DNA from: Sphingobacterium corticibacter
GTDB taxonomy: Bacteria; Bacteroidota; Bacteroidia; Sphingobacteriales; Sphingobacteriaceae
DNA: 64,000 nt
Direction: 5' to 3'
Assembly: GCF_003076635.1 (NCBI RefSeq)
Contig: NZ_QDKG01000001.1
Span: 744,001 to 808,000, forward strand
The notes below the pieces were generated by a model, which saw only the letters and a list, made by a program, of their open reading frames with translations, was not told where the DNA came from and did not search any database. This document shows, piece after piece, positions 23,780 to 54,763 of the stretch (positions are counted from its first letter, which is position 1; the number at the start of each line of letters is the position of its first letter). Made by a program: the position numbers and the translations under genes.

Positions 23780-23905
23780 AAAAAAAAGCATTGCCACTCG
23801 GGGAGAGTGGCAATGCTAAACTAACCAATTATTAACCTAAAATTATGAATAGTCAAATATACGCCACCGTTGAACGGCTTGCAAGATGTTTAACTTTTGT
23901 TAACC
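23780..23905. repeat. Dispersed hairpin/tail element, copy 1 (possible small RNA)
   Basis: Plus strand: A-run, then a 12-bp stem GCATTGCCACTC (23788-23799) / GAGTGGCAATGC (23805-23816) with loop GGGGA, then TAACCAATTATTAACCTAAA and TTATGAA (to 23849), a short inverted repeat CCGTTGAACGG (around 23867-23877) and ATGTTTAAC. Minus strand: TTG (23882-23884), a 20-bp spacer and TATATTTG (23854-23861) make a good promoter. The hairpin followed by eight or so T (23780-23787) makes a good terminator, defining a candidate transcript of about 70 nt (about 23849 down to 23780). A second copy with a different stem is at 54641-54763. Confidence 0.6.
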
Positions 23906-54132: not shown

Positions 54133-54600
54133 GCTAGATCGCTTCGTGCTATCGTGATGATGGTATGATTAGATGTTTGCAATCCTTACTAATGCTACGT
54201 CTTTGCGAAGCCGAGGCACGAGGCTGCGGCAATCTCATTCCATGTATTTCATCGATTTATTTTATGAAATGTTGTAGATTGCTTCGTCGTGCCTTCTCGC
54301 AATGACGCGATTTATTCCTTCGCTTGTACTAATGAACTTGCCGTCTTTGCGAAGCCGAGGTACGGGGTTGCAGCAATCTTATTATTAACCTTATTAACTA
54401 TATCAATTCTATTAACTTGAAAAAATAGATCGCTTCGTACCTCGCGATGACGATATGATATTTGCAATCCTCACTATAGCTGCGTCTTTGCGAAGCCGAG
54501 GTACGGGGTTGCGGCAATCTTATTATTAACCTTATTAACTATATCAATTCTATTAACTTGAAAAAAATAGATCGCTTCGTCGCCTCGCGATGACGTTATG
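54133..54600. repeat. Tandem units of a dispersed palindromic repeat
   Basis: The block CGTCTTTGCGAAGCCGAGG occurs at 54198, 54342 and 54483, giving units of 144 and 141 bp. Units 2 and 3 are nearly identical, including an A/T-rich inner part (CTTATTATTAACCTTATTAA...). Each unit also carries, inverted, a block like AGATCGCTTCGT...CTCGCGATGACG. Unit 1 has the more canonical AGATTGCTTCGTCGTGCC...CGCAATGACG, a sequence whose reverse complement (CGTCATTGCGAG...) resembles REP-like intergenic palindromes known in many bacteria. No gene is seen. Confidence 0.8.
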
Positions 54601-54640
54601 ATTTGACAAGAGCTTACAAAACCCTTAAAAACGCATACAA

Positions 54641-54763
54641 AAAAACTCCTGAAACGGGGAGTTTCAGGAGTTTACCAAACCAATTATTAACCTAAATTAT
54701 GAAATTATACTACTAAAACGCCGAGCTCTCTCGGATGTTGTGTAAATGTTAGATATTAACATT
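54641..54763. repeat. Dispersed hairpin/tail element, copy 2
   Basis: Plus strand: A-run, 13-bp stem AAACTCCTGAAAC (54643-54655) / GTTTCAGGAGTTT (54661-54673) with loop GGGGA (54656-54660), then AAACCAATTATTAACCTAAA and TTATGAA (to about 54703), then AACGCCGAGCTCTCTCGG with inverted repeat CCGAG/CTCGG (54721-54734), and ATGTT. The stem sequence is entirely different from copy 1 at 23780, yet the pairing, loop and tail are kept. On the minus strand the hairpin is followed by a T-run. The matching minus-strand promoter is less clear than in copy 1. Confidence 0.6.

Follow-up and report, generated by a model that had tools for sequence, protein, structure and literature searches.

The element on the minus strand at positions 54637–54706 of the 64,000-nt window analysed here (Sphingobacterium corticibacter contig NZ_QDKG01000001.1; G000:C1:798637–798706) is probably, at roughly 60%, one of about 18 paralogous genes for trans-acting small RNAs (sRNAs) of ~65–75 nt that would work in the manner of FopS on susC-like and other glycan-use mRNAs, without an RRM partner of the RbpB type. 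It carries a promoter-like box, a conserved unstructured 5' part and a covarying terminator, and belongs to a dispersed multicopy family that extends through the Sphingobacteriaceae and is also present in phages. The role in the control of susC and glycan-use genes is a prediction from sequence.

The order in each copy, read on the minus strand, is promoter, unstructured conserved 5' part (CAUAAUUUAGGUUWAUAAUUGGUU in the RNA) and intrinsic terminator (13-bp stem, UCCCC loop and U-tract). For the present element (copy 2), all on the minus strand, the terminator scan and covariation place the hairpin at 54643–54673 (13 pairs, TCCCC loop, then a T-tract); the 5' part, CATAATTTAGGTTAATAATTGGTT, is the predicted seed region for pairing (54678–54701), with near-invariant alignment columns and an identical sequence in the named relatives; and the promoter-like GGCGTTTTAGTAGTA (54708–54722), of the CGTTATA class, is common to copy 3 and several relatives. 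The RNA is predicted to start near CAUAAUUU, i.e. (A)UCAUAAUUU. Copy 1, also on the minus strand (23781–23851; G000:C1:767781–767851), has an exact match to the seed core GGTTAATAATTGGTT at 23823–23837 and a sigma-ABfr -7 box, TATATTTG, at 23855–23862, recognised by sequence and position class. The two copies share AACCAATTATTAACCTAAA exactly (23823–23841 and 54678–54696), and two such matches occurred in none of 100 shuffles. Each has a 13-bp stem and a 5-nt loop with very different stem sequences, and both were found where the preliminary description had reported them, with the same loop, tail and linker and different, perfectly paired stems.

That description had read the element in the other orientation. 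A T-tract lies 3' of the stem on the minus strand (equivalent to an A-tract 5' of the stem on the plus strand) and the promoter-like sequences are likewise oriented for the minus strand, so this is the functional strand. Since the T-tract is 3' and CATAATTTAGGTTAATAATTGGTT is 5' of the hairpin, the hairpin is an intrinsic terminator and the former 'tail' is the 5' end of the RNA. A second hairpin had been counted as part of the element, but the inverted repeat concerned (CCGAG/CTCGG at copy 2, unstranded at 54721–54734 and adjoining the promoter-like site; CCGTT/AACGG at copy 1) lies 5' of the predicted start; copy 3 lacks it, and it is not general in about 85 relatives. At most it is part of the promoter region, outside the RNA family. 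Just downstream of copy 2, at 54167–54606 of the window, are repeats spaced in tandem at ~141–144 bp with a GCGAAGCCGAGGTACG...CCTCGCGATGACG pattern and a REP-like look.

A third copy was found, and then 15 seed matches in the same genome, all 15 with the hairpin. The covariance model R1 was built from an alignment of 15 sequences of this genome and returned 18 confident copies from it, most of them training-set members; copy 2 scored 85.6 bits (E 4.1e-13) and copy 1 scored 83.8 bits, the sequences of both being in the training set. One weak match (L061, G000:C4:42209–42284, E 0.066) has GGTCAATTATTGGTT and a different loop, and is possibly a divergent subfamily. R1 matches were present in 208 of the 301 Sphingobacteriaceae genomes sampled, in 16 of 20 genera, and the genomes listed from the same genus had from 8 to at least 16 matches each (16 candidates were scored per genome). 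A class-wide sample contained no genome outside the family with more than two matches, and those were weak. Among the matches listed, the exact 23-mer occurred in named genomes of Sphingobacterium, Mucilaginibacter, Parapedobacter, Olivibacter and Arcticibacter, and in 'bacterium A37T11'. Divergent copies in genus g2 were not found by a pattern search with a 31-nt gap limit, which would also miss many true copies. The dispersed family that had been proposed from two copies is borne out by these numbers, as is the absence of a match to a named Rfam family: searches at gathering and loose thresholds returned nothing credible at the element, only chance-level matches under the gathering score. 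No earlier description in Sphingobacteriaceae was found in the open-licence literature searched.

It had also been considered that copies might stand upstream of susC-like genes, or be decayed remnants of the leader of one gene family. The copies are free-standing units with promoters and terminators of their own, and none was observed as the leader of a susC gene; they resemble a susC start region because the 5' end of the sRNA reads like the antisense of one. The element was rejected as a susC leader, every exact 15-mer seed match in the genome being an sRNA copy.

Covariation had been suggested as a check in the preliminary description. A plain MAFFT alignment of copies from this genome (n = 15) showed changes on both sides in 12 of the 13 stem pairs, and among 108 distinct sequences all 13 pairs displayed double compensatory changes. 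In the latter alignment, which was fitted to the covariance model and leans towards it, 93.3% of cells were paired and covariation scored 0.71; shuffles gave 0.25, and slid versions no more than 0.20. The stem-plus-T-run test was passed by 80 of 85 relatives. Most copies have a TCCCC loop, replaced in Mucilaginibacter and some others by one of the GCCCATC type. Where the preliminary description had left a choice between structured RNA and structured DNA, the former is supported and the latter is not, the T-tract and promoters being oriented for one strand. A structured DNA or MITE/REP-like mobile element would fit copies that are dispersed and also found in phages, but is very improbable given this single orientation, the lack of conserved flanks seen among the copies, and stems that change in sequence but stay paired, beside a fixed single-stranded part.

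Promoter-like boxes are present a few nucleotides before the conserved part in about 15 of the 18 copies of this genome, and would drive transcription of the sRNA. In 28 of 35 cases TAnnTTTG, the primary promoter box of Bacteroidetes (consensus cited in PMC7366714), ends exactly 15 nt before the GGTT of the seed, against a background of 0.011 per sequence. About 8 of the 18 copies have the sigma-ABfr box at fixed spacing, the rest having sigma-54-like, CGTTATA-class or tRNA-like sequences upstream. The sigma-54-like class (TGGCAY-N5-TTG, background 0) was recognised by eye in five copies (L049, L052, L058, L059 and L060), three being counted by a script with a distance filter; rpoN is present in the genome. 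The CGTTATA/CGTTTTA..GTA class, which includes copy 2, lies at a distance of 11–15 nt from the GGTT of the seed, against a background of 0.002 per sequence. Such different promoters may allow the copies to respond to different signals, all delivering one seed. An inverted repeat resembling TAGTGTA-N-TACACTA overlaps the promoter spacer in a subset of copies (L046, L095, L112, L137, L141 and L160) and is perhaps a regulator site.

It is quite improbable that the element just marks transcript ends, as a transcription terminator preceded by a conserved motif and nothing more. A terminator does form its 3' end, and tRNA or tRNA-like 3' ends precede the element in phages and in some cellular copies, but the boxes just upstream of those 15 or so copies leave no space for another transcript, and the fixed 24-nt unpaired sequence is not needed by a terminator. 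The tRNA-like 3' sequences are directly 5' of two copies in this genome and of many Mucilaginibacter copies, where ARAGORN called no tRNA. In L056 and L057 (G000:C1, ~307.6 kb and ~1221.8 kb) the sRNA follows a short tRNA-like fold (TGGGGCG...CGCTCCA, T-arm included) that closes a longer piece of upstream sequence, different at the two loci; neither Rfam nor ARAGORN gave a call for this fold. Upstream of the sRNA, L066, L089 and L090 show tandem tRNA-Leu-like sequences of ~110–120 nt, likewise with no call by ARAGORN, the sRNA coming directly after the second.

A scan of viral contigs for the exact seed returned 49 stretches (L301–L349), which the covariance model matches. Three of these contigs were checked against PHROGs; all three specify terminase and portal proteins, and two a major head protein. 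A portal homologue was identified at 18 loci, and at all of them the sRNA is downstream of the portal gene, on the same strand and within 3 kb. Several phage copies are within ~15 nt of a tRNA called by ARAGORN (e.g. L317, L332 and L303). BLAST searches of phage and plasmid records with the 68-nt consensus gave only chance matches. The surroundings of the sRNA look identical in the viral locus L309 and in L105 of Sphingobacterium mizutaii, suggesting that the L105 copy came from a prophage. As a speculative proposal, tailed phages of Sphingobacteriaceae-type hosts might carry the identical-seed host sRNA beside tRNAs in their structural region, and so silence susC-like transporters (maybe phage receptors) or redirect host metabolism during infection. 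Whether phages make use of the host sRNA network could be tested directly on these copies.

Possible targets were assessed by calculating duplex energies between the seed and start regions (-40 to +20) of 39 susC-like and 853 other genes, the start codon being the first ATG of each ORF. Energies were lower for susC-like start regions than for other genes, an effect absent in upstream and coding windows. In ~1.26 Mb of stretches partly picked around susC genes, with the true and reversed seeds applied to the same set, no dinucleotide shuffle (0/160) was as extreme in the susC-minus-other difference for either seed A or seed B, while for the susC mean the counts were 4/160 (seed A) and 0/160 (seed B). 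The top 40 predictions included nine susC genes for the true seed and three for the reversed seed. Non-susC predictions of the true seed were rich in glycan-use proteins at the top, versus mostly unrelated enzymes and unknowns for the reversed seed; those in the lead included FecR, GH92, GH76, an arabinofuranosidase, DUF3823 and a FadL-like porin for the true seed, followed by FecR, an ECF sigma factor and a DUF4843 protein. The 5' part of the sRNA may be pictured as pairing with the translation start regions of mRNAs for susC-like transporters and other glycan-use proteins (GH92, GH76, arabinofuranosidase and FecR are predicted examples), where it would block ribosome binding. An in-register susC consensus test was not significant, lipoprotein-like and secreted-like gene classes showed no excess pairing, and the named loci held only seven susC-like genes, too few to replicate the susC pairing test.

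The seed pairs at least as well with the susC start regions of G362, whose genus has no detectable copies, and susC leaders are G-poor and C-containing. Given this complementarity, the pairing reflects the general make-up of susC leaders; the seed fits that general character, and the complementarity by itself does not indicate coevolution. A less likely interpretation is that the sRNA family is real and multicopy but acts mainly with something other than susC mRNA: a protein or another RNA would be bound by the fixed 24-nt part and the C-rich loop, and susC pairing would be a by-product of leader composition. It would account for the equal complementarity in a genome without copies, for a seed conserved far beyond the need of pairing with diverse leaders, and for loops that stay C-rich (TCCCC or GCCCATC) though the stems change. 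Against it, susC pairing in the own genome beats that of dinucleotide-shuffled seeds, and the non-susC list is headed by glycan-use genes. The FopS-like reading is preferred.

The phage copies, and only these, resemble svsR, a prophage-encoded sRNA that reportedly limits phage infection in E. coli (PMC12803456): both are phage-borne, and svsR affects infection of its host. The host of svsR belongs to a different phylum, and a role of the present phage copies in the host is hypothetical. GibS of Bacteroides thetaiotaomicron (PMC7366714) is similar in having a conserved unstructured 5' seed for start-region pairing (predicted here) and a 3' terminator, but is a single gene of ~145 nt with two seeds and a PM2 promoter, unlike the multicopy family of ~65–75 nt described here. 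The closest parallel is FopS, an sRNA family of B. thetaiotaomicron described in Bacteroidaceae and bound by RbpB, with 12–15 paralogous copies per genome of ~65–70 nt, a single-stranded 5' stretch followed by a Rho-independent terminator, a canonical sigma-ABfr promoter and an R1/R1' seed, and which represses susC translation at the start region (PMC11697453). Paralogues are also numerous here (18 confident copies, and 8 to at least 16 in genomes of the genus, compared with 12–15), and the size and the single-stranded stretch followed by a terminator, predicted from sequence and folding, agree. Pairing with the susC start region is likewise predicted, yet a genome without copies shows it to the same degree, and sigma-ABfr boxes occur in only part of the copies. 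FopS is bound by the RRM protein RbpB, whereas an RRM_1 search of this genome gave no match (the control, Bacteroides ihuae, has one); a search for Hfq, on which Hfq-dependent trans-acting sRNAs rely, also gave no match in this genome. Rfam returned no FopS match at the element at E values up to 10, the presence of FopS in the Rfam copy used being unconfirmed. The sRNA is thus likened to FopS in its probable working, by architecture, size, copy number and predicted targets and not by sequence letters, and is not filed as FopS. If the parallel is true, FopS-like control exists in a genome that yielded no match to the known partner protein, the diversity of promoters would feed many signals into one regulatory output, and the control of sugar-uptake loci by many sRNAs with an identical seed is not restricted to Bacteroides but extends to a second large lineage.
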